The notes below the pieces were generated by a model. The model did no database searches. It was not told where the DNA came from and was given only the letters and a program-made list of their open reading frames with translations. Below are positions 32,477 to 46,078 of a stretch of DNA of 55,030 nt, piece after piece. The translations under genes were made by a program, and so were the position numbers. The stretch lies in NCBI GenBank assembly GCA_012026935.1, contig VEPI01000062.1, positions 4,683 through 59,712 of the forward strand, in the 5' to 3' direction. Position 1 is the stretch's first letter. Each line of letters starts with the position of its first letter. The DNA is from Melioribacter sp. GTDB lineage: Bacteria; Bacteroidota; Ignavibacteria; Ignavibacteriales; Melioribacteraceae.

Positions 32477-35400
32477 TTATTTCATCAAGATCATTTTCTT
32501 AGAAACGTTAACATTGTTACCGCTCAACTTGTAGATGTACATACCGCTTGCAAGTCTGCTTGCATCGAAAGTTACTTTGTGCAGTCCGGAAGCCAATTCG
32601 TTTTCTACCAGGTTAGCTACTTCTTGACCGAGTGTATTGTAAACTTTCAATGAATACATTCCTGCTTGCGGAACTACGAACTCAATAGTTGTAGATGGAT
32701 TGAACGGATTAGGATAATTCTGAGCAAGTTTATATTCTGTCGGTGTTGTATAATTATCGCCAACGCCTGTAACATTGTTATTTCCGGAGATCTTATAAAC
32801 CTGACCTTCTTTTGTTCCAACATAAATATCATCCGAACTCGGATTAACCACCATGGCGCTTACACCATATCCGCTCATACCAAGTGATGTCCATGTGTTG
32901 CCATTATCAGAGGACATGTAAACACCATTTGTTAAAGAGCTGACATAAATCTTACCGCTCAAATCAACCGACATTGAATAAACAAATGCTACATTAAGAG
33001 AAGTAACTTTTGTAAAGGTCAATCCGCCGTCTGTTGATTTATATAAACCATCACCATAAGTTCCGGCAAAAATTGTGGTAGAAGTTGAAGCTAACGACCA
33101 GATCATGTTATAAGCACATGTAATTTTATTCCAGTTTGTGCCGTCTGTGCATTTGAAAATTCCTCCACCGGCCGTTCCTGCAAATATGTTTCCATTGCTT
33201 GTAATGGTTAATGATTGAATTGTTAAGAATGCGCCGAGACCATCATTAAAAGGAATCCATGTTGAACCTAAATCTGTTGATTTGAATATTCCAAATCCCC
33301 ATGTACCGGCATACAATGTTCCGTTGTAAGAAACAAGAGCATGAACATCTTTGCCAGAAAGACTTGTTAATATCCAAGCTGAGCCGTTGAATTTATAAAC
33401 ACCTTTTTCGGTAGCTGCAAATATTACTCCGCCGCTGATATTAAGTGACCAGATGAAGGATACATTCATTCCGGTGTTGATAACAATCCAATTCTTTCCG
33501 CCATCGGTTGATTTATAAATCTTACCGCCCCACGTTCCTGCATATATATCATTTCCATAGTAAGCTAGTGTATAAATTATTTCGCCCGGTCCGAACGAGC
33601 AGACGTTTGTCCATGTTCCGTTGCCGTTGTCATTATTGTTGCCGGTTGTGCTTGTAATCGTAATAGTTGCACTTGCAGAATTGTTATTTGAATTAGGATC
33701 AGGTGTTGAGCACGAAGTTATAGTTGCAACGTTTGTGATTTTTTTGTCATAAGGAATATGACCGCCAAACAGTGCATAATTAAACTGACCGCTTCCGGTA
33801 AGTGAATGACAAATCATCTGACCATTAATAACACCGCTTACAAAATTTACCGCTGCAAATGGAGCCAGAACAGAACCCTTTATATCTATACCGGAAATTG
33901 TTATGTCTGTTGCTTGATAGAAATTGTATAGAACATTTGTAATTGCCGTTCCGGTTACCGTAAGTCCACCGGTCCAGCTTAAAGATGTTCCGCTTATGTT
34001 TACTAGTACAACGGAACCATTCGGAACATCAATGGCTATATTATTTGCAGTAGATAAACTTGCGCCGCTTACAATGAAAACATTTAAGAACGGATCGGTT
34101 CCGGTTAATGATATTCCACCGTATTGAAACGCGGTAGTTCCATTTACTGTATAGCCAGAAAGAGTGGTTGACAAATTCTGTAGGTATGATTTTTCAACTG
34201 CAAAGTCTATAGGACTATCTTTGCGCAAAGTTCCGCCTGTAATGCTTACGGAGGATTGCGGTAGATTAGTTGAATGTCCGTAAACTACATTACCATTATA
34301 TACAGCACCGCTAACAAATGTCAGATCGCGGCCGACGATTAATACATCGCCGCTGTTTGCCGGCAGCTGATCACCCATACTATAAGTTGCAAAGTAAGCA
34401 TCACGACCAACAGCTACCTTACCTTGAGTATCGGAAGATGGTTGATTTGCATCTTCAATTACAAATAAGTTATAATCTTTTGCGGTACCAAGATCGAAAG
34501 CGGAATTGTTAAGTTGTCCGCAGTCAACTTTTACTTTTATAATTAATGTAGCGAAAGCTCCGCTGGCAAGAGTTCCAACATTCCAAATTCCTGTTGTTGA
34601 ATTATATGTACCTTGAGAAGCGGTGCTTGATACATAATTCAACCCGGACGGCAATAAATCTGTTACTACAATACCGGAAGAAGAATCTGGCCCTAAGTTT
34701 GTAACCTTGATAGTGAAGTTAACATTATCATCACATTGAGGATTTGGATTGTCAACAGTCTTTTCGATTTTTAAGTCAGCCTTTTGTTCACATATAATAG
34801 TTACGGTCCAGGTGCTTTCATCAATCACAGTTGCAGAACCATCAACCGGATGTCCTTCGGCGCGCACAGTGTTTACCAATTGTCCGCAATCATTGTCGCC
34901 CGTTATGTAGGTTAAAGTAAAAGTTGTTGACTGTCCCGGATCCAGAATATCTATGTGCTTAATTAAATGATCGCCTGTTGGTTTCAGCATAGCATCGTAA
35001 ACATCAATGCCGCCGTGCAGCTGAATATCGCCACAGTTTTCTACTAAGAAAGAATAAGTTATTGTTTCGCCTTTGATATATGATTGTTTATCAGACGACT
35101 TTGTAATGCTAACACAAGTTTTATAATAACCAAAGTTGATGGATAAATTATCGTTACAGTTTAATGTTGTATTTACTGATGTACTGTTCTTTGTGTACCA
35201 TTTTACTTGAGCCGTATTGAAGAATACTCCACCCGAAGCAAAATTAGAAGAAGCCAACCGGACTGTGTATGTTCCGTTAACTAAATTCGGGAAAGAATAA
35301 TGACCGTTAACATCAGTAGTCGCGGTAGCAAGAACGGTTGTGCCTTGAACTAATTCAACAACTGCACCCGCAATACCGGGCTCGCCAGAATCTTTAGTGC

Positions 35401-36877
35401 CGTTCATATTGAGATCACGATAAACATAGCTGCCAACTGTGTTTTCGCAAACTTGTTCTTCACAGGAGAGAAATCCATTATCAACGGTTCCATTGTCAAA
35501 GTTTTCGTTAATTGCCGTAGCAGCATCGTTAAATTGTGAGAATGTATATCCGCTTAATGAACCGCCGCCGAGAGCTTGTTCGGCTAATGATAAGAATGCA
35601 TTAACAGTCGTTCCGGTAAATGGCCCCGTTGCAATTACAAGAGCACCCAGATCGGTAGAGTTGGTTCCTATTTTACCAGCAGCATCAAAATAAATATTTA
35701 ATTTTAGAGCGGTTAATTGTCCCGCGAGAACATTAATGCTGGTAGTAGGGTCTATATAATTTTGTGTTAACGCTGCAGGAGTATTTCCGTCCGGTAAATA
35801 ATTTTTTACAGCAGTAGCAGAAGTTAATTTTATTGTAAAATTTCCGCCGACTGTTAAACCGCTTGGAAAGACAGTTGAAAAATATAAATCTCTTATCTTA
35901 CCGGGGACGCTGTTAGAAGAACTTCCCCATCCGCCCTGTGTAAAAGTTGTAAATCCATTAAGATTACATTGGCTAGTTTGTGTATACCATCTAACAGTTG
36001 CGGTTTCTTCTTTCATATCAAAAGCAGGAGTTGCCAAAACTAATTTTTGTTTTAAATTGGCGCCCGCCTTGTATACATATCTTGTCCCCTGAGGTATAGA
36101 AACATTTGCTTTAACATTAATTGTTGCCGTGCCGGTACCGCTATATGCTAAAGTAATTGGCCCGACATGTCCGCTTGCATTTGTTGTTCCAGAAATTGCG
36201 CTTAAGGTTCCTATGGATGATGAAATAGTAACAGCCAATCCTGATATGGGATTTCCGTTTAGATCCAACGCATAAATGTCGAATGTTGCGTTTGTGCCCT
36301 GAGCTAATGATTGAGACGAAGGAAGTATTAGTAATGATTGAAGCGGAACAACATTATTGTGATTTGCAATTGCATCCGCAACAATTGCATTTGCCCTGTT
36401 CTTGATATCATCGGCTCCGGAAATTGTATTGATATCGGTATTATCGCTAAAATGCCAGATAGCAAATTGTATAGCAGCAGCTTCCTTATTTAGATTAGAA
36501 AGTATTCCTGCATAACCGGTTTTAAATGGGAAATAATGATTAAGGATATAAGTTATTTCTGAAGGCGTACTACCCTCATCCCAATAATCTTCATTTCTTG
36601 CTAAGTGGGTATTGATATCAATGCAGTAAAATTTTGTGCTTACAGAATTTAGTGTTCCTAAAAATAAACCGGCGAAATATGTATCGCGAACATTAGTATA
36701 TGGATTTATAAAGCTTACACCGGTACCCTCAGCATTACTTGTACTGATTTGTGCAATGCTGGTATGATCTTGCACTTTTGGTAAAAACTTACTCTGTGCA
36801 ATTACATTAGTTGTCAAACCGTAAATAAGTGATATAAACACTATCACTTTTAATAACAGTTTAGTATAAGTATTCAC
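32477..36877 (-). CDS. T9SS-secreted multidomain adhesin with thioester-type N-terminal domain
   Basis: A 1466-residue cell-surface protein. The start is set at GTG 36877 because a perfect AGGAGG (36884-36889) precedes it and a signal peptide follows directly (ends VIAQS at about 28). Domains in order, approximate: thioester-domain-like 40-180 with YCID (Cys85) and AIQFAIW (Gln137); Big-1-like Ig 190-265; an unassigned beta region; SdrD-B-like 480-585 (VYRDLNMNGTKDSGEPGIAG); DUF11-like repeats 600-790; choice-of-anchor-A-like 793-1060; a beta-propeller of YCF48/sortilin type with repeated KSTDGG blades 1095-1370; and a C-terminal type-A sorting domain 1385-1466 (NYPNPFNPSTTIEF...KKMILMK). Probably exported by T9SS and used for adhesion. 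Confidence 0.88.
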   Translation of the reverse strand: MNTYTKLLLKVIVFISLIYGLTTNVIAQSKFLPKVQDHTSIAQISTSNAEGTGVSFINPYTNVRDTYFAGLFLGTLNSVSTKFYCIDINTHLARNEDYWDEGSTPSEITYILNHYFPFKTGYAGILSNLNKEAAAIQFAIWHFSDNTDINTISGADDIKNRANAIVADAIANHNNVVPLQSLLILPSSQSLAQGTNATFDIYALDLNGNPISGLAVTISSSIGTLSAISGTTNASGHVGPITLAYSGTGTATINVKANVSIPQGTRYVYKAGANLKQKLVLATPAFDMKEETATVRWYTQTSQCNLNGFTTFTQGGWGSSSNSVPGKIRDLYFSTVFPSGLTVGGNFTIKLTSATAVKNYLPDGNTPAALTQNYIDPTTSINVLAGQLTALKLNIYFDAAGKIGTNSTDLGALVIATGPFTGTTVNAFLSLAEQALGGGSLSGYTFSQFNDAATAINENFDNGTVDNGFLSCEEQVCENTVGSYVYRDLNMNGTKDSGEPGIAGAVVELVQGTTVLATATTDVNGHYSFPNLVNGTYTVRLASSNFASGGVFFNTAQVKWYTKNSTSVNTTLNCNDNLSINFGYYKTCVSITKSSDKQSYIKGETITYSFLVENCGDIQLHGGIDVYDAMLKPTGDHLIKHIDILDPGQSTTFTLTYITGDNDCGQLVNTVRAEGHPVDGSATVIDESTWTVTIICEQKADLKIEKTVDNPNPQCDDNVNFTIKVTNLGPDSSSGIVVTDLLPSGLNYVSSTASQGTYNSTTGIWNVGTLASGAFATLIIKVKVDCGQLNNSAFDLGTAKDYNLFVIEDANQPSSDTQGKVAVGRDAYFATYSMGDQLPANSGDVLIVGRDLTFVSGAVYNGNVVYGHSTNLPQSSVSITGGTLRKDSPIDFAVEKSYLQNLSTTLSGYTVNGTTAFQYGGISLTGTDPFLNVFIVSGASLSTANNIAIDVPNGSVVLVNISGTSLSWTGGLTVTGTAITNVLYNFYQATDITISGIDIKGSVLAPFAAVNFVSGVINGQMICHSLTGSGQFNYALFGGHIPYDKKITNVATITSCSTPDPNSNNNSASATITITSTTGNNNDNGNGTWTNVCSFGPGEIIYTLAYYGNDIYAGTWGGKIYKSTDGGKNWIVINTGMNVSFIWSLNISGGVIFAATEKGVYKFNGSAWILTSLSGKDVHALVSYNGTLYAGTWGFGIFKSTDLGSTWIPFNDGLGAFLTIQSLTITSNGNIFAGTAGGGIFKCTDGTNWNKITCAYNMIWSLASTSTTIFAGTYGDGLYKSTDGGLTFTKVTSLNVAFVYSMSVDLSGKIYVSSLTNGVYMSSDNGNTWTSLGMSGYGVSAMVVNPSSDDIYVGTKEGQVYKISGNNNVTGVGDNYTTPTEYKLAQNYPNPFNPSTTIEFVVPQAGMYSLKVYNTLGQEVANLVENELASGLHKVTFDASRLASGMYIYKLSGNNVNVSKKMILMK

Positions 36878-37427
36878 TACTTTCCTCCTAAGGTTAATCC
36901 TATTATTGGTAGGCGAAGGGCAAGACAAATGCCATGGATAGGCTTGGTTTTCAGAGTAAAAACGAACTATTTAATGACTATTCAGAAAAGACTTTGTTTC
37001 AAAATGATATTGCTTGATGATATTGAGCCAAAGAAAAAGCACTAAAAACAAGGCTATTTTAATTTGGTTAATATTAGATTACGTACTGTATCTTTGTTAA
37101 TGTGTAATGTTCCAAAGCGAAAAAATAACGAGCTGATTTTATTATAACCCAATTGCTTTACAAATTTAAGGTCATTCTCAATTTGAATCTGAATTTTGGA
37201 ATGTTCATTATAAAAACGCGAATGATTACAACAAAATAAAACAAAGAGGAATTTTTAATTTAATAGTAGAAGCCTTTTCGAAAATCTTTTAAAAACATTA
37301 AATAAAAAATAATTTTCACAAAAAATTTACTATCTGTTAACACGTTGGGAATCTTAGTTTTATTGAGTAAATTATAAAAAGAAATTCAGATCAAAGTATT
37401 AACAAAATTCTATCCTACCCGAAGGGC
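36878..37427. promoter_or_regulatory. 550-bp divergent intergenic region
   Basis: Separates the minus-strand adhesin gene from the plus-strand receiver gene, so it must contain both promoters. Features seen: AGGAGG ribosome-binding site of the adhesin (36884-36889), and a direct repeat TGATATTG at 37005-37012 and 37018-37025, 13 bp apart. Otherwise it is AT-rich with no gene-like frame. I could not assign promoter hexamers reliably. Confidence 0.45.
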
Positions 37428-37805
37428 ATGGCCACAAATAAAAAGAATATCGTTTTGATTGAAGACGACGAGGGAATTACTCGGTTAATTAAGTTCAAGC
37501 TTGAAAAAGAAGGTTACGAGGTTAAAAGTTTTTTAAACGGCGAAAAAGTAATTGAGTATCTTGTTCGAAACAAACCCGCATTAATAATCTCAGATGTAAT
37601 GATGCCGGTTATTGACGGGCTTACTCTTCTTAAAGAAATAAAAGCCGATCCAAGAGTTTCTGATATTCCGGTAATTATGTTATCAACCCATTCACATGAA
37701 AGCGCCGTACTAGAGTGTTTAAGAGCAGGGGCGGCAGATTATGTTACAAAACCTTTTTCAACTACCGAGCTTATACTGAGAATTGAAAAAACACTTCTTA
37801 AGTAA
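37428..37805 (+). CDS. CheY-like response-regulator receiver protein
   Basis: A stand-alone receiver domain (125 aa) with no output domain. Acidic pocket IEDDE (11-15), phospho-acceptor Asp56 in SDVMMP, switch Thr/Ser (LSTHS, about 86-87) and Lys108 in VTKPFS are all present, so it should be phosphorylatable. No histidine kinase is encoded nearby. It heads the plus-strand run receiver, HEAT-repeat protein, GT2 synthase, LtaS-like enzyme, which suggests post-translational control of polysaccharide synthesis, though a separate promoter for the next gene (62-bp gap) is possible. Confidence 0.92.
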   Translation: MATNKKNIVLIEDDEGITRLIKFKLEKEGYEVKSFLNGEKVIEYLVRNKPALIISDVMMPVIDGLTLLKEIKADPRVSDIPVIMLSTHSHESAVLECLRAGAADYVTKPFSTTELILRIEKTLLK

Positions 37806-37867
37806 TCAAATCTCTTTTATATTATATTTATAATAATCTCTTATTAACAAATTAAAGCGGAAATTTA

Positions 37868-38935
37868 TTGTCTACAGGTTACAATTTTTATATACTAATG
37901 GCTCTGTTCGTATTGCTGCAGGTCGCATATTTTTTTATGGCGTGTATTTTTTTGCTGAGGGCAGTAAACTTTTTTAGAACCAAACGCCAAGAAAAATTTA
38001 TATCAAAATGGCAGGATCTAATCTTTAGCTATCTTTATTCGAAAGACAATCCGCAAAACCTTATATCACTAATACCAAAATCCAAATACAAATACTTATT
38101 TTCTTACTTAAGAACGTTTTTGTTTAATCTGAAAGGAGACGACCTAAACCGACTTAAGCAGTTAATTACCGAAACAAGCTTGCGGGAATATTTTTTTAAT
38201 AAGGCAGATAAATTAAACCGTAAAGATAGAGTTGAAGCAATTTATTTTTTAAAATATATCAACACGGAAGAAACAGTCAATTTGTTGATTAGAAACTTAA
38301 ACACACCAAGCGAATTGGTATTTAGAACAACAGTTGAAAGTCTTGCATATCTTAATGCGTACGGGAAAATTAATCTCATATTGGATGTAGCTAAAAAAAG
38401 AAAAAATTTAACAAGCGATAGTATTTTGTCAATGATTCTGAAATTCGATAAATCAATTTGTCCGATATTAACCGAAAGGCTTGACACAGAAAAATCAACA
38501 AAGATTCTTCTTATAATAATTACAGTATTGTGGCATTTTAAATATGCGGAAGCGCTTAAGAAAATTTTGAATATTTTGTTTTACAGCGGCGATAAAGCAT
38601 TGATAATTGAATCATTAAGATATTTGGGTGAAGTTGAAAATTTAGATTCAATAAATGCACTTAGATTTTTCTTGGGACATTCAAAGCCGGACATTCGAGT
38701 CGCAGCAATTGAAGCGGTAGGAAAAATAGGGGACGCTTCTTTAGAAGATTATATAATAAAAAAAATGTTAGATCCTGAGTTAGAGGTTAAAATAGCTGCA
38801 GCGAAGGCAATGTATAAATGTTCAACCAAGACTGAATATAAACTTTTTGAATATGCGAAAAATCCATCACGTCAGATAGAATCAGTTATAGCTCAAAGAA
38901 TAATTATGGAGAAAAGAATTTTAGAAAATGACTGA
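37868..38935 (+). CDS. membrane-anchored HEAT-repeat protein
   Basis: A 355-residue protein with one N-terminal transmembrane helix (about 8-33) and a long helical-repeat domain. The clearest HEAT-type repeat is at about 255-320 (DIRVAAIEAVGKIGDASLEDYIIKKMLDPELEVKIAAAKAMYKC). The frame begins with TTG 37868 preceded by GCGGAAA; an ATG at 37898 would cut into the membrane helix and is less likely. It overlaps the glycosyltransferase gene by eight bases, so the two products are made together and probably act together, for example as a scaffold linking the receiver to the synthase. Confidence 0.8.
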   Translation: MSTGYNFYILMALFVLLQVAYFFMACIFLLRAVNFFRTKRQEKFISKWQDLIFSYLYSKDNPQNLISLIPKSKYKYLFSYLRTFLFNLKGDDLNRLKQLITETSLREYFFNKADKLNRKDRVEAIYFLKYINTEETVNLLIRNLNTPSELVFRTTVESLAYLNAYGKINLILDVAKKRKNLTSDSILSMILKFDKSICPILTERLDTEKSTKILLIIITVLWHFKYAEALKKILNILFYSGDKALIIESLRYLGEVENLDSINALRFFLGHSKPDIRVAAIEAVGKIGDASLEDYIIKKMLDPELEVKIAAAKAMYKCSTKTEYKLFEYAKNPSRQIESVIAQRIIMEKRILEND

Positions 38936-40334
38936 AATCCTAAAAAACATAGTGCAGTACTTTAATTATTTTATTTTACTTTATTTTCTTGCAATAGGAA
39001 GCATTTATATTTTGCTAAGCCTTTTATCGTTTTTTAATTTAAAAAGGTATTTGAATAACCAAGCTTTTAAGGATCTTAAAGATGTATTCAAATTAAAAAA
39101 ATATAAATCTATTTCTTTAATTGTGCCCGCATACAATGAAGAAGCGGGTATATACACCTCCGTACTTGCCCTGTTACAGCTTGAATATCCTGAATATAAA
39201 ATTATTGTTGTTAATGACGGCTCAAAGGATCAAACGCTGGATATTCTTAAGGAAAAATTTAATGCAATTGAAGTTCCTTACCTTCCTTTCGGCAATATTC
39301 CAACTGAAAAAGTTAACTCCGTTTACATTTGTAAGAATTACAAAAATTTAGTGATAGTTGATAAAAAAAATGGCGGAAAAGCAGACGCAATTAATGTTGG
39401 AATAAATATCTCCGACAGCGACCTAATAATAGTTGTTGATGCAGATTCAATTATTGAAAGAGACAGTTTATTAAAAATAAGCTATCCATTTGTAGAAAAT
39501 GAAAATGTAATTGCAGTCGGCGGAACAGTCCGGATTGCAAACGGTTGTCAGATTAATAAGGGATATGTAACAAGCGTAGAATTACCAAAGTCATGGCTGG
39601 CTAAATTTCAGGTGGTAGAATATATACGTGCATTTATGTTTGGCCGGAACGGCTTTCAAATAATGGACGGCATCTTAATTATTTCCGGCGCATTTAGTTG
39701 TTTTAAAAGGAGTGAACTGATAAAAGTAAACGGATTTCTTAAAAATTGTATTGGCGAGGATATGGAGATAATTGTAAGAATGCATCGCCAATTAAGAAAA
39801 GAAAACCCGCAAGCGCTTATATCATTTATTCCGGATCCGGTTTGTTGGACCGAAGCCCCCGAGAGCAAAAAAATTTTGGGACTGCAAAGAAAACGCTGGC
39901 AGAAAGGAACGATTGTAAGTCTTCTGCTACACAAACAATTATTCTTCAATACGCATTATGGATTACTCGGAATGATAGTCTTTCCATACTTTGTTCTATT
40001 TGAAATGCTCGGACCTATTATTGAAGCTGTAGGTTATTTAGTCTTTTTTGTTTCTCTGATTTTTGGAATGGTCTCGTTGAACTTTGCACTCGTTTTGTTC
40101 TCCGCAGCGATTCTTTACGGAATTGTTCTTTCACTACTTTCGGTAATTTTTGAGGAATTAACATTTAGAAGATACAGTCGCCTTTCGCATCTCATAGAGT
40201 TATTTATAATTGCCGTGTTAGAAAACTTTGGATATAGGCAGATCACTCTTTGGTACCGCTTTAAGGGTACCCTGGAATACTTTCTAGGAGATAGGAAATG
40301 GGGACACATGGAGAAGAAAGGCTTTTCTTCTTAA
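38928..40334 (+). CDS. processive family-2 glycosyltransferase (PgaC/cellulose-synthase-like)
   Basis: A membrane polysaccharide synthase of 468 aa. TM helix at about 12-35, then a GT-A domain with PAYNEE (67-72), NDGS (96-99), DAD (171-173, metal/UDP binding), GED (276-278, catalytic base) and QRKRW (320-324, the QxxRW motif of processive enzymes), followed by three or more C-terminal helices (about 345-435). The full D,D,D,QxxRW set implies an inverting processive synthase of beta-linked glycans, as in poly-GlcNAc, cellulose or hyaluronan synthases; the sugar is unknown. Coupled to the HEAT gene upstream. Confidence 0.92.
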   Translation: MTEILKNIVQYFNYFILLYFLAIGSIYILLSLLSFFNLKRYLNNQAFKDLKDVFKLKKYKSISLIVPAYNEEAGIYTSVLALLQLEYPEYKIIVVNDGSKDQTLDILKEKFNAIEVPYLPFGNIPTEKVNSVYICKNYKNLVIVDKKNGGKADAINVGINISDSDLIIVVDADSIIERDSLLKISYPFVENENVIAVGGTVRIANGCQINKGYVTSVELPKSWLAKFQVVEYIRAFMFGRNGFQIMDGILIISGAFSCFKRSELIKVNGFLKNCIGEDMEIIVRMHRQLRKENPQALISFIPDPVCWTEAPESKKILGLQRKRWQKGTIVSLLLHKQLFFNTHYGLLGMIVFPYFVLFEMLGPIIEAVGYLVFFVSLIFGMVSLNFALVLFSAAILYGIVLSLLSVIFEELTFRRYSRLSHLIELFIIAVLENFGYRQITLWYRFKGTLEYFLGDRKWGHMEKKGFSS

Positions 40335-40366
40335 ACGATAAAATTTGTGAAGGGAAATTTTAAATA

Positions 40367-42349
40367 ATGAAAAACAAACTGATAGACGCCACCAAGTATT
40401 TTACTTCTTCATCGTTGGCAACTCTGTTTATTTTTTTTCTGATAAGATGTTATGAAATTCTATTTGTCTGGAAAAACATTCTAAAGCACGGAATTCAATT
40501 AAATCTTTTGTCTGTATCGTTCTTTTCGGAAATCAACTTCTTTTTCGAAATAGCAGTGATACTTGGAATTGTATTTATAATTCTAAATTTAATTCATCAG
40601 AAGACATCGAAAATAGTTTTAAATGTTGTGTTTGCATTGGTATCAGCAATATATCTACTGCTTGATTTATATTTTACAAAAACTTCAATTCCACTGGGCT
40701 CCGATCTATACGGGTATTCTGCTTTCGAAATAAATCAAACCGTTACCTCTGCCGGTGGATTTAACCCGCTCTATTTGGTCTTGTTGTTGTTATTTCTCGG
40801 CATTGTTTCCGGGATAATATTTTTGTTTCATAAGACCCGGTTCAACATTACCTTTATAAAATTTTATTTTATTCTAATTCTCGTTTCATTAATCTTTGGA
40901 GACCGGCTTAATCCTCAGCCGCAAAATTTTTCAAATACATCGGAATATTATTTAGCTATAAACAAATTGAATTTTTTTGCTGAGAAAACTTATAAATATT
41001 TTTTTGAGAAAGAAGATGCGTTGCCGATTTCCAATTATTATATAGATTCAGGTGAGGGCGAGGAAGTATTTTTCAAATACACAGATAATAATTATCCGTT
41101 TCTTCATGAAGAAAACACAAAGGATGTATTAGCAAATTTTTTTAATGTTGGCGATAAGAAACCAAACTTTATTTTTATTATCACGGAAAGTCTGGGAAGA
41201 GGATATTCGGGCGATAACGCCTATATGGGAAGCTTTACACCGTTTTTAGATTCACTTGCAAGGCACAGTCTTTATTGGGAAAATTGTTTAAGTACCAGCG
41301 GCAGAACATTTGCCGCACTTCCCTCCATATTAGGATCTCTTCCGTTTGGAGAAAAAGGTTATTCAGAGATGGCAGAAAATCAACCCGCCAGCTTTTCTTT
41401 AATAAAATATTTAAAAAGTTATGGGTATAAAGTACGTTTTTATTACGGCGGACATGCACACTTCGATATGATGGACACCTTCCTTAAAAAACAAAACGTT
41501 GATCTGATTGTAGATGAGAGTAATTTCGGAAGCGGGTATAATAAAATGCCGGCTAAAGGAAACGGTTTTTCGTGGGGATATGGCGATAAAGATTTGTTTA
41601 AGCGAGGACTTAGCGTGATAAATTCCGATAATCTAGAAAATCAACTGAACATTTTTCTTACACTATCCATGCACGATCCATTTTTAGTGGATAATCAAGA
41701 CAGCTACCGCAAACAGTTCGACGAGAAATACTCCAATCTTCATTTGTCGCCGGATATCATGACGAGCATAAAAAGTTACAGGGATATACTTTCAACGGTT
41801 CTTTATACAGACGATGCTTTCAGATATTTTTTCAATGAATACAAAAAGAGAGATGACTTTAAGAATACTATTTTTATTATTACCGGTGATCATAGAATGC
41901 CGGAGATTCCAATTACTACTCAAGTTGATAGGTTTCATGTTCCGTTAATAATTTATTCGCCGCTGTTAAAACACCCGGCAAAATTTTCTTCTGTCGTTTC
42001 ACATTTTGATATAACACCAACTCTTTTGTCGTTATTAGCCAATCAATACAAAACGGAAAAAATTTCTCTTTCAACATTTATCGGAAGCGGACTTGATACA
42101 ACAAGACAATTTAGAAATATTCATAAATATCCCTTGATGAGAAACAAAAACGAATTAATTGATTATTTATACGGAGAATATTTTTATTCGGAAAATATAC
42201 TTTATAAAATTCTGAATGATTTAAGAATCGTTCCTTTAGAAAACAAAACGATAGAGAATAAGATTGAAAATGAATTTGCAGATTATAGAAGACGCAATAG
42301 CTCAATGCTTCTAACGAGAAGATTAATTCCCGATTCACTCCTTAAATAA
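40367..42349 (+). CDS. LTA synthase/sulfatase-family membrane transferase
   Basis: A 660-residue enzyme with five N-terminal membrane helices (about 15-178) and a periplasmic alkaline-phosphatase-fold domain (about 260-600). Key residues seen: FIITESLGR (metal-binding Glu274), SGRTFAALPS (nucleophile Thr314), MHDPF, and FIITGDHRMPE (Asp-His metal site). Relatives are LtaS, OpgB/MdoB and EptA-type transferases, which attach phosphoglycerol or phosphoethanolamine to glycans or lipids. Placed 32 bp after a polysaccharide synthase, it probably decorates the polymer or its acceptor. It converges with the minus-strand genes 15 bp away. Confidence 0.88.
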   Translation: MKNKLIDATKYFTSSSLATLFIFFLIRCYEILFVWKNILKHGIQLNLLSVSFFSEINFFFEIAVILGIVFIILNLIHQKTSKIVLNVVFALVSAIYLLLDLYFTKTSIPLGSDLYGYSAFEINQTVTSAGGFNPLYLVLLLLFLGIVSGIIFLFHKTRFNITFIKFYFILILVSLIFGDRLNPQPQNFSNTSEYYLAINKLNFFAEKTYKYFFEKEDALPISNYYIDSGEGEEVFFKYTDNNYPFLHEENTKDVLANFFNVGDKKPNFIFIITESLGRGYSGDNAYMGSFTPFLDSLARHSLYWENCLSTSGRTFAALPSILGSLPFGEKGYSEMAENQPASFSLIKYLKSYGYKVRFYYGGHAHFDMMDTFLKKQNVDLIVDESNFGSGYNKMPAKGNGFSWGYGDKDLFKRGLSVINSDNLENQLNIFLTLSMHDPFLVDNQDSYRKQFDEKYSNLHLSPDIMTSIKSYRDILSTVLYTDDAFRYFFNEYKKRDDFKNTIFIITGDHRMPEIPITTQVDRFHVPLIIYSPLLKHPAKFSSVVSHFDITPTLLSLLANQYKTEKISLSTFIGSGLDTTRQFRNIHKYPLMRNKNELIDYLYGEYFYSENILYKILNDLRIVPLENKTIENKIENEFADYRRRNSSMLLTRRLIPDSLLK

Positions 42350-42364
42350 ACCAGACCTGTTAAT

Positions 42365-43534
42365 TTATTTTTTCTGTAATGAATCATAATAGTTATTTAA
42401 AATTGAACTAACCAGCGGCTGGTAAAATAACCAGAAAAAACTTTCTCTTTCGGCAAGATCGTTAGAAGGATACATAAGCCATCTAAATTTTGTAATTCCC
42501 CAAAACTTTGAAAGAATCATTTTAACAGGGTTATCGCAAAAATCTCCGCAGAAATAATAAAACTTATAATCATTATCATAATGTTCAATTACAGCAGGAA
42601 AGGGATTGGGAATATTTAGAGATTGTAAAATTGAATCGCCGCGCGAATTTGTGAAAATTTGAAAAACCGAGACAACATTGTTTGATCTTTTTGTTAACAT
42701 GATGTCGAACCAGTAAGAGTATTTTATTTTTTGTGGCAGATCAAACCGCTTCCGGCTTACCTCGTTAGAAATAATATATGGGATTTCTCCTTTTAAGTCT
42801 TTTTTATTTTCTAATATTTCTATTCTGTCGTCATTGTTTACCAAAACAATTCCCGATCCTTTAAATGGCCAATGATTACCATGCTGATCTTTATAGTCTC
42901 TTATTACCCAGACAGGAATTTCTTTATTAGAGGTTGTATCTAGAACATTAAAATATCTTCCGGTCCAACCGCTCCACTTTAATCCAAACAGTTCTTCAAA
43001 TTGAGTTCTAACTCTTCTGGATGTTGGCGGCGCAATTGTATTAAACTCGGTAAGAATTAATTTTTTCTGAATCTTCATTATGTTTAACAACGATAATTCT
43101 TTTCTAGACATTCCCCCATAAATTAATTGCGAACGCTCACCACGATAATTATCACTGTACCAATCTTTGCTGTAAACTCCGTAAAGGTCGGTCATATAAA
43201 TCATATCAAATTTGTCGGCAAGATTATTTAATCGAACATCATCAAGATTTTCAAAATCATTAATAAAGAATTTTTTATTTTCTTTGGGAAAGAAACCGAA
43301 ATAGTCGTCAGAAATAGAATATAAATTTCTATTTGGCATACAAAATTTATTATTATCTAGAATCCAATTAAGGGATCTGCGTTCGTCGCCGTCAACCGTA
43401 AGAGAAGTTTTATCAATCACGGCAATTTTTAATTCTTTTTTTGGTTTAAGTTGCCACGAAACAAGCATTATTAAAGGCAGCAAGGAAATTATTATTATCA
43501 GAAGAAAAATTAAGACGAGATTTCTTTTTTTCAT
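42365..43534 (-). CDS. unrecognised membrane-anchored periplasmic protein
   Basis: A 389-residue protein with one N-terminal membrane helix (about 5-27) and a large soluble domain, presumably periplasmic. The domain is rich in Trp, Tyr and Asp (for example LKWSGWTGRYF; YFCGDFCDNPVK with a close Cys pair; SFFWLFYQP near the C-terminus). I recognise no family; the first part (IAVIDKT..., then DMIYMTDLYGVY and RSQLIYGGM) is alpha/beta-like. It starts 12 bp after the YaiO-barrel gene and is co-transcribed with it, so it probably works in the same glycan pathway. Confidence 0.7.
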   Translation of the reverse strand: MKKRNLVLIFLLIIIISLLPLIMLVSWQLKPKKELKIAVIDKTSLTVDGDERRSLNWILDNNKFCMPNRNLYSISDDYFGFFPKENKKFFINDFENLDDVRLNNLADKFDMIYMTDLYGVYSKDWYSDNYRGERSQLIYGGMSRKELSLLNIMKIQKKLILTEFNTIAPPTSRRVRTQFEELFGLKWSGWTGRYFNVLDTTSNKEIPVWVIRDYKDQHGNHWPFKGSGIVLVNNDDRIEILENKKDLKGEIPYIISNEVSRKRFDLPQKIKYSYWFDIMLTKRSNNVVSVFQIFTNSRGDSILQSLNIPNPFPAVIEHYDNDYKFYYFCGDFCDNPVKMILSKFWGITKFRWLMYPSNDLAERESFFWLFYQPLVSSILNNYYDSLQKK

Positions 43535-43546
43535 TTTCTATAAAAA

Positions 43547-44764
43547 TTAAAATAAAAACTTTAAGCCAAAACCCACAGAAATCTTAGTTCTAAATTCGTT
43601 TGCAAGATATTCCTCTCGACTGTAATCACCGGAAATACTTAAAATAAACTTTCTGCTAAGTTTGTTTTGATATTCTATACCGAGCTTATCGGATTTCAAC
43701 CAATTTCCGAGAAGGTCAACGGAATTTTCTTCAGGTGAAATTCCTGTGCCTGCAGAGAGAGACAAGTAATCATCGGCGCCCGATAAATAATATCTAATAA
43801 TTAACGAATATGAGTGAGAGGCCTTTTCAACTTGTGGAGTTATAAATGTTCTAAACGAGAACCAATAATTACCCCAATATTTCCCAAGAGCGAAAGTATA
43901 GATCCATGTATCGCTTGAGTATTTTAACAGCCGAAATCCGCCGTCAATTTCAAAACTAATGGGCAGGCTAAAATATAATGATGCGCCGTAGCGCTGCTTT
44001 GGAAATATTCCATCCTTTGAATAACCAAAATTTAGATATGAATAAATACCCGGTGCAAAACCCGGGTACATATCAATTTCATATTGTGTGCCGTTGTTTT
44101 CAAATCTTCGCGCAAAGTTTACTCTAAAAATAGTTGTACCGAAAAAAAGCCTTCTTGAATAACTAAGCGATCCAAGCTGCCATGGATCGAATGTTTTGTC
44201 AAATTTTTCATATTGATATGTAACACCAATTGAATTTATTCTTGTCTTATCTTTTAGCCGTTCTGCCAAAACTAAAGCTTCTGTATTTGATTTGTCAATC
44301 TTAAATATTTTTTCCAGCGTGAGAAATGCGTCATTGTATCGTTCAAGATCCTCTAATACTATTGCCCGCTTTAATAGAAAATCAGCAGAAGCGGGATATT
44401 TTAAAACACCAAGATTGCAAAATTTTAGAGCGGCACTGGAATTACCTGACCAATATTCTAAATCAATTGCTGCGCTAATAGCATCGCTGTTAGAGGAATC
44501 TTTTTTTATAACATTATTAAAAATTACTCTAGCAGAATCATAGATATTATCCCACGTATAAAGTCTGCCGAGAAAAATTGAGATATCTGCATAATCCGGA
44601 CTTTTAGTTAGCGCCTGTTTACAAAGTTGTCTGGCAAGGTTTCTGTCTTTCAGATTGAAAGCAGCATCTTTCGCCTTAACAAAAAGTTCATCTGTAGTAA
44701 GCTGAGTTTGCGCCAGTAAACTTATATTCACCAGAAAAACAAGAAACATCAGAATCCACCGCAC
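43547..44764 (-). CDS. TPR plus YaiO-family outer-membrane beta-barrel protein
   Basis: An outer-membrane protein of 405 aa with a signal peptide, a periplasmic TPR region (about 20-175) and a C-terminal YaiO-like barrel (about 180-405, starting SIGVTYQYEKFDKTFDPWQLGSLSYSRRLFFGTT and ending LKFLF). TPR plus barrel is the layout of polysaccharide export porins such as PgaA/BcsC, so it is the likely exit channel for the glycan. The longest frame starts at ATG 44809 with no ribosome-binding site. GTG 44764 has AAGGAG (44771-44776) six bases upstream and puts the signal peptide at the N-terminus, so it is preferred. Confidence 0.85.
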   Translation of the reverse strand: MRWILMFLVFLVNISLLAQTQLTTDELFVKAKDAAFNLKDRNLARQLCKQALTKSPDYADISIFLGRLYTWDNIYDSARVIFNNVIKKDSSNSDAISAAIDLEYWSGNSSAALKFCNLGVLKYPASADFLLKRAIVLEDLERYNDAFLTLEKIFKIDKSNTEALVLAERLKDKTRINSIGVTYQYEKFDKTFDPWQLGSLSYSRRLFFGTTIFRVNFARRFENNGTQYEIDMYPGFAPGIYSYLNFGYSKDGIFPKQRYGASLYFSLPISFEIDGGFRLLKYSSDTWIYTFALGKYWGNYWFSFRTFITPQVEKASHSYSLIIRYYLSGADDYLSLSAGTGISPEENSVDLLGNWLKSDKLGIEYQNKLSRKFILSISGDYSREEYLANEFRTKISVGFGLKFLF

Positions 44765-44953
44765 CGACTTCTCCTTATTTAATTTGCCGCAAGAGTTTAT
44801 TATGCTCATAATAAATATTTTAATTGTACTTTCAAATAGCGCACTTCAAAAACAGAAAATATTTTATCAATTATAAGTATAATAATATTTTCTAAGCTAT
44901 ATTAATAACAAAATCATTGCAATTATGATCAATAAATAATATCGGAACGCTAA

Positions 44954-46078
44954 ATGAGTTTTAGTAAAAAATATTTTTCGCTTAGTTTCAAAAGCCTTTT
45001 ATTGTTATTGCTTTTTTGGCTTATGAGCGGTTATGTGTTGGGAACAGCCTTATTAATTGGTCCTGTCCGTTGGATTGCCGATTATTCAAAAATGCAGAGT
45101 TGGCCGCAGTCTACTGAAGATATTGTAGTAAAGATTGTAATGGTGATTCTTGTAATTCTTTCTTTTATTATTTCATTATTTATTACACGATCTTTTTTAA
45201 GGTCGGACAATATTTTCAAACGAATAATTCTTTTCATTTTACCGTTAATTCTTTCTGCGGGAGCTGTTTGGTTATGGATGAATCCAAGCTTAATGCAAAA
45301 GGAAAGCAACATAAGTGAAACAATTGCGAAAAACGGGTCTGAGTTTGTCTTCGGTTCATTTCCGGAAGAGGCGAAAATAAGATTATTGAAAGAGAAGAAC
45401 TTTACAGCCATCATAAGTTTAATGCATGAAGCGGTTGTTCCGTTTGAACCAAAATTAATTAAAGAGGAAAAAGAATCTTGTAAAAATGTTGGTATTGAAA
45501 TAATCAACATTCCAATGCTTCCGTGGATAAGTGAGAACAAAGAAGCTCTAAACCGGTTAAAAGATTTAGCACTTCACAAACCCGGTAAATATTATGTTCA
45601 TTGTTATTTAGGGAAAGACCGAGTTAACATTGCAAAAAGAGTTATTGAAACATCAAACCAAACAGCGGCAATAAACTCCGAACTTAAAACTAGATCAATT
45701 GAGGACCTTGAAGAATTTGAAAGAGGAGCCGTAATTAAATTAGAAAAAGATGTTTATTTTACCCCATTTCCAACCGACGACGAATTCATGGGTTACATTC
45801 TTAATGGCTCGTTTAAAAATGTTGTGTCTCTTTTAGATCCTAAAAACCCAGAAGATTTGATCTTGATTGAGAAAGAAAAAAATTTCTTTGAGACTTTTAA
45901 GATACCCTTTGAAAATTATCCACTTCGTCCCGGCAAAACCAACAAAAGAGAATTAGAAAATGAAATCAAGAAAATCATGAAAACAGATCGTCCCATTCTC
46001 ATTCACGCATTTAAAACTAATTCACCACAATCCGAAATGTTTATCTCGGCTTACAACTCAAGCAAAACACGAAATTAA
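44954..46078 (+). CDS. membrane protein with tandem phosphatase-like domains, one apparently inactive
   Basis: A 374-residue protein with three membrane helices (about 14-36, 59-79, 90-108) followed by two similar halves. Half one (about 120-245) carries HCYLGKDR (216-223), fitting the HCx5R phosphate-binding loop of dual-specificity/tyrosine phosphatases, with an Asp/Pro-containing loop before it. Half two (about 262-374) begins with an alike strand pattern (VYFTPFPTDDEFMGYILNGSFKNVVSLL, compare SEFVFGSFPEEAKIRLLKEKNFTAIISLM), but its loop reads HAFKTNSP (351-358), lacking both Cys and Arg. The soluble part is probably cytoplasmic. It is divergent from the YaiO gene. Confidence 0.78.
   Translation: MSFSKKYFSLSFKSLLLLLLFWLMSGYVLGTALLIGPVRWIADYSKMQSWPQSTEDIVVKIVMVILVILSFIISLFITRSFLRSDNIFKRIILFILPLILSAGAVWLWMNPSLMQKESNISETIAKNGSEFVFGSFPEEAKIRLLKEKNFTAIISLMHEAVVPFEPKLIKEEKESCKNVGIEIINIPMLPWISENKEALNRLKDLALHKPGKYYVHCYLGKDRVNIAKRVIETSNQTAAINSELKTRSIEDLEEFERGAVIKLEKDVYFTPFPTDDEFMGYILNGSFKNVVSLLDPKNPEDLILIEKEKNFFETFKIPFENYPLRPGKTNKRELENEIKKIMKTDRPILIHAFKTNSPQSEMFISAYNSSKTRN

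Follow-up and report, generated by a model that had tools for sequence, protein, structure and literature searches.

A conserved gene block around a GT2 synthase and its HEAT-repeat partner in Melioribacter and other Bacteroidota: a putative machine for a phospho-decorated surface polysaccharide

What is made by a gene block in which a response-regulator receiver, a HEAT-repeat protein, a glycosyltransferase family 2 (GT2) synthase and an LtaS-type phosphotransferase stand side by side? The question is raised by seven open reading frames (ORFs), here called A to G, at positions 37428-46078 of a 55,030-nucleotide stretch of Melioribacter sp. (GCA_012026935.1, contig VEPI01000062.1, forward strand, 4,683-59,712; this whole stretch is the window). 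A to D are read on the plus strand, E and F lie on the minus strand and converge on D, and G diverges from F. An initial annotation, made from the sequence alone, proposed a new regulated surface-glycan system, and this interpretation is partly supported by the present analysis. The block is real and conserved, a variant of the machines that make polysaccharides by the synthase-dependent route; it is apparently undescribed in the open-licence literature, and it is not confined to the lineage of the window. We consider it somewhat more probable than its opposite that the block directs synthase-dependent production of a surface polysaccharide, that a phosphorelay receiver controls it through a HEAT subunit and that phospho-groups decorate the polymer. 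We infer the regulation, the sugar and the phospho-group; observed here were gene association, the pairing of B with C, fusion of C with D, kept catalytic residues and the predicted folds of B and E.

In all 58 C loci examined, B adjoins C upstream on the same strand. The mechanically called B and C ORFs overlap in 47 of them, and the 8-bp overlap described for the window is real (B end 38935, C start 38928). Twenty of the C loci were hand-picked across families from the C-search list before their neighbours were known; taken in this way regardless of B, all 20 had B directly upstream, and 18 of these proteins match Pfam HEAT_2, which is the independent check on a B profile built partly from C neighbours. 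As a control, seven of the 13 other GT2 matches in the same genome were inspected, and none had a B match within 1.5 kb. Judged from gene neighbourhood, the HEAT protein thus appears to be a subunit that partners this subfamily of GT2. The placing of B in a GT2 system by the initial annotation is thereby upheld, and extended in that B is no local oddity. The identity of B is itself well marked: PF13646 (HEAT_2) matches at 55.5 bits (cut-off 27.7) behind one N-terminal hydrophobic segment, and the AF2 model (predicted local distance difference test, pLDDT, 89.3) is all-helical, with a long N-terminal helix (2-57) followed by helical repeats for which Foldseek returned alphaRep/HEAT and armadillo solenoids. 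B thus belongs with the HEAT-repeat proteins by both profile and modelled solenoid. The alignment behind this model held 23 homologues from the genome-collection loci described below and left genome-only loci aside. A scan of viral contigs with B gave no relatives.

The synthase carries the hallmarks of a processive enzyme. Processive GT2 enzymes share the motif set D, DxD, (T/G)ED and QxxRW, and in C (PF13641, 82.7 bits) residues D97, D171, E277, D278, Q320, R321, R323 and W324 are present in 36/36 aligned rows, the window included, and D173 in 35/36. The nearest curated family is PgaC/IcaA (TIGR03937), which C matches at 135.7 bits, far below the cut-off of 422.3, and all 36 members match this model. 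Cellulose synthase (TIGR03030) scored 45.3 bits (cut-off 699.1), and no PilZ match was found in C up to an E-value of 1. By the family cut-off tests made, C would be neither a poly-N-acetylglucosamine (PNAG) synthase nor a cellulose synthase. Homologues of C stand in longer ORFs in L179 and L181 (862 and 608 aa).

Since E matches no known family, it was chosen as the first search query. It was found in 7 of 57 relatives, the genome of the window included, and in at least 35 loci of an 84,980-species genome collection, 34 of them in Bacteroidota or Ignavibacteria, as judged by record title, and one in Neobacillus; the collection was searched with two peptide patterns, so that 35 is a lower bound. 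Within the phylum of the window C was present in 93 of 395 genomes (E-value <= 1e-100) and E in 13, all 13 also with C (Fisher p 3e-9, without correction for relatedness). Duplicate removal left 45 E loci, of which 28 had flanks longer than 6 kb on either side. Within the stretch fetched around these 28, A was present in 23 loci, B and C in 25 each, D in 19, F in 21 and G in 2. Calls were made at author-set thresholds (bits: A 90, B 40, C 500, D 250, E 200, F 100, G 70), A being counted only in ORFs of up to 260 aa; the tallies left out L033, L035, L038, L041 and L042 (same genomes as L045, L046, L047, L050 and L053) and L052, whose E is 99 % identical to that of L053. Gene order within the block varies from lineage to lineage, with a divergent F-E pair and a convergent D in L041 and the order receiver-G-E-B-C in L098, and so the association does not merely reflect an inherited arrangement. 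It goes beyond chance because it holds across families and recurs in two Bacillota loci, A-B-C-E in Neobacillus and E-B-C, with no A found, in Paenibacillus; neither D nor F was found in the fetched stretch of either. A plasmid scan with E gave one match, in Paenibacillus cellulosilyticus, and Pedobacter xixiisoli (L057) is a named isolate that carries the gene set. The search for co-occurrence across Bacteroidota and Ignavibacteria that the initial annotation proposed has thus returned a conserved association, with the genes co-located in other genomes and not scattered. In L069 and L070 a protein of about 450 residues lies between B and F, and D is not above threshold.

Table 1. Features of the block, the neighbouring surface protein and extended forms of E (positions in the window unless a locus is named)
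Feature	Position	Strand	Assignment
A	37428..37805	+	single-domain response-regulator receiver, 125 aa; PF00072
B	37868..38935	+	membrane-anchored HEAT-repeat solenoid, 355 aa, TTG start; PF13646, AF2 model
C	38928..40334	+	processive-type GT2 synthase, 468 aa; PF13641
D	40367..42349	+	LtaS/OpgB-type membrane phosphotransferase, 660 aa; PF00884
E	42365..43534	-	389-aa membrane-anchored GATase1-like protein, probable periplasmic glycan-binding subunit; without known family
F	43547..44809	-	TPR + YaiO outer-membrane beta-barrel, 420 aa, probable exporter; PF19413, TIGR04390
G	44954..46078	+	membrane-anchored tandem phosphatase, protein tyrosine/dual-specificity (PTP/DSP)-like, 374 aa; optional component; HCX5R motif
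Surface protein X	32477-36928	-	thioester domain, choice-of-anchor A/ice-binding-like adhesive domain, type IX secretion system (T9SS) sorting tail
E with extension	L077:9986-13264		Neobacillus; E fused to a domain of ~700 residues
E with extension	L185:9717-15030		Paenibacillus; homologous extension and a separate homologue beside E

The gene-by-gene description of A to G in the initial annotation proved accurate in coordinates, Pfam/NCBIfam matches and hydrophobic segments. The four models that it named, PF13641, PF00884, TIGR04390 and PF13646, are matched by C, D, F and B, respectively, and the unit that it proposed, in which a processive-type GT2 is joined by a HEAT partner, an LtaS-type phosphotransferase and a TPR/YaiO protein, is supported as a conserved one.

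D and C are found not only near each other but also as one polypeptide. A search with D (E-value <= 1e-80) found it in 37 of the 395 genomes, all 37 also with C (Fisher p 8e-27, again without correction for relatedness), and in 34 of these D lies within 10 kb of C. Fusion of C and D occurs in 12 loci, in 11 of the 395 genomes and four families (f22, f25, f27, f30); it was recognised by domain in L094, L095, L096, L168, L176 and L177, where both profiles match one ORF of 1134-1266 aa, and by one common open frame in G304, G068, G147, G344, G077 and G246. Fusion and proximity together suggest a common substrate, and the fusion is the strongest hint that D may act on the product of C. From such GT2-LtaS fusions one would learn how a phospho-group can be attached while the polymer is being made. 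In L103 D is followed by TPRs (TPR_19, 55.6 bits), and in L168 a weaker TPR stretch lies behind C+D.

D itself has N-terminal hydrophobic segments and a sulfatase-fold domain (PF00884, 130.3 bits), and its closest PDB structures by sequence are VP1736, LtaP and LtaS. Residues E274, T314, H436, D508 and H509 are kept in 24/24 rows of an alignment that left out the long D forms of L074 and L103 and the C-D fusions; we take their roles, metal residues and Thr nucleophile, from LtaS. The domain, these residues and their position behind membrane helices place D among enzymes of LtaS/OpgB type, while the score against OpgB phosphoglycerol transferase I (NF009027), 45.1 bits at a cut-off of 572, places it outside that curated family.

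E of the window has no Pfam or NCBIfam match up to an E-value of 1, and among 34 members scanned only scattered weak Pfam matches occur, the best with an E-value of 0.0039 in one member. The AF2 model, built from a 34-row alignment that left out L075 and L079, which are fragments, and the C-terminal extension carried by L077, is confident (pLDDT 89.0, predicted template modelling score 0.89) and consists of an N-terminal helix and a GATase1-like domain. By VIA, matches with Z 12-14, the highest to 5xb7 (Z 14.2, 191 aligned, 2.9 A), were obtained; they include GH42 middle domains, the GATase1-like 3rht (Z 14.0, 210 aligned, 3.5 A), the ThuA-like 4jqs, Agd3 (6nwz, Z 13.1, 208 aligned, 4.1 A) and eukaryotic oligosaccharyltransferase subunits; Foldseek gave E-values from 4e-5 at low TM-scores of about 0.3 by query length. 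The structural match spans most of the domain, which assigns E to the GATase1-like fold. No Cys column exceeds 21/34, so that a conserved amidotransferase triad (Cys-His-Glu) is absent, and the lack of a conserved catalytic Cys speaks against a role as class I glutamine amidotransferase. There are 24 near-invariant aromatic positions. According to PMC7229062, the domain of this fold in Agd3 likewise misses the triad, has conserved surface aromatics and binds polysaccharide. Since fold, absent triad and aromatics match this module, E is most likely a putative glycan-binding guide subunit, by model and analogy, and probably membrane-anchored and periplasmic; it differs from the Agd3 module in being a stand-alone membrane-anchored protein with about 10 % identity. 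The suggestion in the initial annotation that the 389-residue protein could replace PgaB is accordingly unlikely for an enzyme. For the C-terminal domain of the Neobacillus E, neither Pfam (over cut-off) nor the PDB (by sequence) gave a match, and the extension of about 700 residues presumably resembles a clan GH-A glycosidase, a candidate noted by eye. As a query, E offers a handle for finding such loci.

F is a clear YaiO member (PF19413, 222 bits, cut-off 23.9; TIGR04390, 181.7 bits, cut-off 32), and probably the exporter. It was not found in the fetched stretches of the two Bacillota loci, which fits a role in the outer membrane. Among the literature matches listed, none treats YaiO together with a synthase, as judged by title or abstract start.

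A matches PF00072 (101.8 bits) and no other Pfam domain above cut-off, and is thus a receiver without output domain. In 40 of the 58 C loci it stands next to B on the side away from C, the commonest arrangement and one that is kept in Neobacillus. A receiver-bearing protein of more than 600 aa is present in the fetched stretch of 19 of 57 C loci; all five of these that were scanned combine HisKA, HATPase and receiver domains, and four have an Hpt domain. From its domains, such a hybrid-kinase layout would form a phosphorelay, the last step of which can be a separate receiver like A. In L181 a 541-aa protein with two receiver matches stands beside the C homologue.

Known systems offer precedents for several of these features. 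Among the closest, and the one to which the working of the block is likened, is the phosphoethanolamine (pEtN)-cellulose system BcsA-BcsG-BcsC of E. coli, in which, according to PMC11379886, a processive GT2 with a bound membrane phospho-transferase is combined with export through a TPR and outer-membrane barrel protein. That system has its own features in c-di-GMP (cyclic di-GMP) control and the BcsB semicircle, whereas the block of the window has a receiver and a HEAT protein, an LtaS-type enzyme, a YaiO barrel and a GATase1-like protein, and its synthase stays far below the CelA cut-off. The PNAG systems PgaABCD and IcaADBC resemble the block in having the GT2 closest to C, and likewise use the TPR-barrel exporter concept. 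They differ in that no deacetylase or PgaD was matched in the block, that C misses the PgaC cut-off and that the exporter is of YaiO type; a PgaB-type deacetylase was not among the listed matches of the eight proteins scanned. Control of synthase-dependent pathways frequently involves c-di-GMP, and in Myxococcus the single-domain response regulator EpsW controls exopolysaccharide synthesis with evidence for contact to EpsZ, according to PMC12802240. EpsW/EpsZ is therefore a precedent for control by receiver contact, with A acting through B as our extension of it; EpsZ, according to the same paper, is a phosphoglycosyl transferase of a Wzx/Wzy pathway and not a synthase with a HEAT partner. Among the matches listed from open-licence papers, by title or abstract start and with subscription papers outside the coverage, no receiver-HEAT-GT2 cluster appeared, and no established name was found for the core of GT2, HEAT protein and usually receiver that recurs in many Bacteroidota. 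That a synthase found in 93 of 395 phylum genomes is accompanied by a HEAT subunit, and in most cases by a bare receiver, suggests a different logic of control and a surface polymer yet to be characterised. Opinion is evenly balanced on the wider proposal that these loci form a separate, widespread synthase class, with an obligatory HEAT subunit, a receiver switch at the end of a phosphorelay in place of c-di-GMP, phospho-decoration built into the synthase by GT2-LtaS fusion and a new GATase1-like guide shared with Gram-positives.

In the mechanism that we favour, A would be phosphorylated by a hybrid histidine kinase, whose gene lies close by in other lineages and not here. Phosphorylated A may then dock post-translationally on the cytoplasmic HEAT solenoid of B, presumed to be the fixed partner subunit of C, and so switch or position the synthase. 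C would polymerise a nucleotide sugar and thread the chain through its own membrane channel, as is suggested by its kind of GT2, and D could move a lipid-derived phospho-group, most likely phosphoglycerol, onto the emerging chain. E, anchored in the inner membrane, would hold the chain by the aromatic binding face of its GATase1-like domain, and F would export it through the TPR neck and the outer-membrane barrel. G, when present, might be a periplasmic phosphatase that trims phosphate, which is speculative.

Several observations weigh against this scheme, and some of them favour rivals. Regulation by contact between A and B is open to the alternative that the receiver acts elsewhere or as a phosphate sink and that B is merely a structural partner of the synthase, in a role like that of PgaD or BcsB. 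B is always with C, yet in 18 of 58 loci the neighbour of B on the far side is not A; A is absent from the fetched stretch of L039, and F intervenes in L065, L170, L171 and L174. B is also poorly conserved (22-34 % mean column identity) without a conserved docking site, and no kinase ORF was noticed beside A in the window. Single-domain receivers can moreover be phosphate sinks, DifD being an example given in PMC12802240. Given that A-B adjacency is nevertheless the commonest arrangement, is kept in Neobacillus and involves a receiver without output domain, we regard this alternative as possible and rather unlikely. Control of C by A through B is still preferred, and the product, the transfer of a phospho-group to a glycan and the A-B contact are all points that we infer.

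Decoration of the polymer is challenged by a different set of data. D is lacking in 56 of the 93 C genomes and in 9 of the 28 E loci that are flanked in full on both sides, and decoration is therefore not universal. The LtaS contacts to glycerol-phosphate, which we take to be W354 and R356, are seemingly not kept, position 367 of D (aligned by eye) being Asp in 24/24 rows; the donor of D may therefore differ, and phosphoglycerol, most likely among phospho-groups, is putative given this different site. Enzymes of the superfamily act on many acceptors. All this would suit a trio of GT2, HEAT protein and receiver that makes an undecorated glycan, while D modifies a membrane lipid or lipoprotein and shares only regulation. 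The 12 fusions of C with D and the short distance between them in 34 of 37 genomes speak for a decorated polymer instead, and BcsG, which sits on BcsA for phospho-decoration (PMC11379886), provides the precedent, so that lipid modification by D is judged improbable. More doubtful still is the reading of the block as PNAG or cellulose machinery of a known type whose subunits have diverged: PgaC/IcaA is the best curated match of C and is shared by all members, but C is far below both synthase cut-offs, F scores 12.2 bits against the PgaA model (cut-off 366.65), and, in line with the absence of PgaB- and BcsB-like partners pointed out in the initial annotation, no PgaB, PgaD, BcsB or PilZ is among the listed Pfam/NCBIfam matches of the block. 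The unity of the block as a decorated-polymer machine is further weakened on the side of E, which is absent from 80 of the 93 C genomes, stands on a different contig from C in G145 and G102, and occurs without A, B or C above thresholds in the full stretches of L072, L073 and L099. C is missing in 6 of 15 E loci flanked on one side only, three of which (L046, L048, L058) are cut by the contig edge beside the cluster.

The phosphatase G was rejected as a core component. L034, L041 and L049 have A-F clusters that lack it, and it is present in genomes G002 and G033, where E and B were not found. It adjoins E in L065, L098 and L104, and in L079 an E fragment lies no more than 2 kb away from it. 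G has three hydrophobic segments and the motif HCYLGKDR (CX5R); the second phosphatase-like half reads HAFKTNS without Cys, and therefore only one half looks catalytic. Pfam gave sub-threshold phosphatase matches only (DSPc, 13.6 bits against 33.5). The HCX5R motif recurs in five distinct homologues (L045, L047, L065, L079, L098), and the homologue in L104 is a 187-aa piece. By its motif G may be a phosphatase of the PTP/DSP kind, which the Pfam score does not bear out, and in the block it is an optional add-on. In L047:4749-5910 (= L038, genome G011) the gene is split into overlapping ORFs of 217 and 196 aa, possibly by a frameshift or assembly error.

Comparison with sister genomes shows the block as a unit of gain or loss. 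In all four that were fetched (G001, G002, G006, G010) the whole block is missing between the same flanking genes, surface protein X and RlmD, which are spaced by 371-470 bp, and neither E nor B was found in these genomes. The missing part coincides with the span 37428-46078 delimited by the initial annotation, and A to F, with or without G, have therefore been gained or lost as one piece. RlmD is present in G003 and G009, and G005 gave no RlmD match. No mobile-element genes were noticed at the block ends, where no dedicated search was made. Where the block is missing, X keeps its place next to RlmD and is thus backbone in the genus of the window, which contradicts its membership in the block there. 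In another genus an X homologue adjoins the block, in L049, in L053 and, as a cut piece, in L050.

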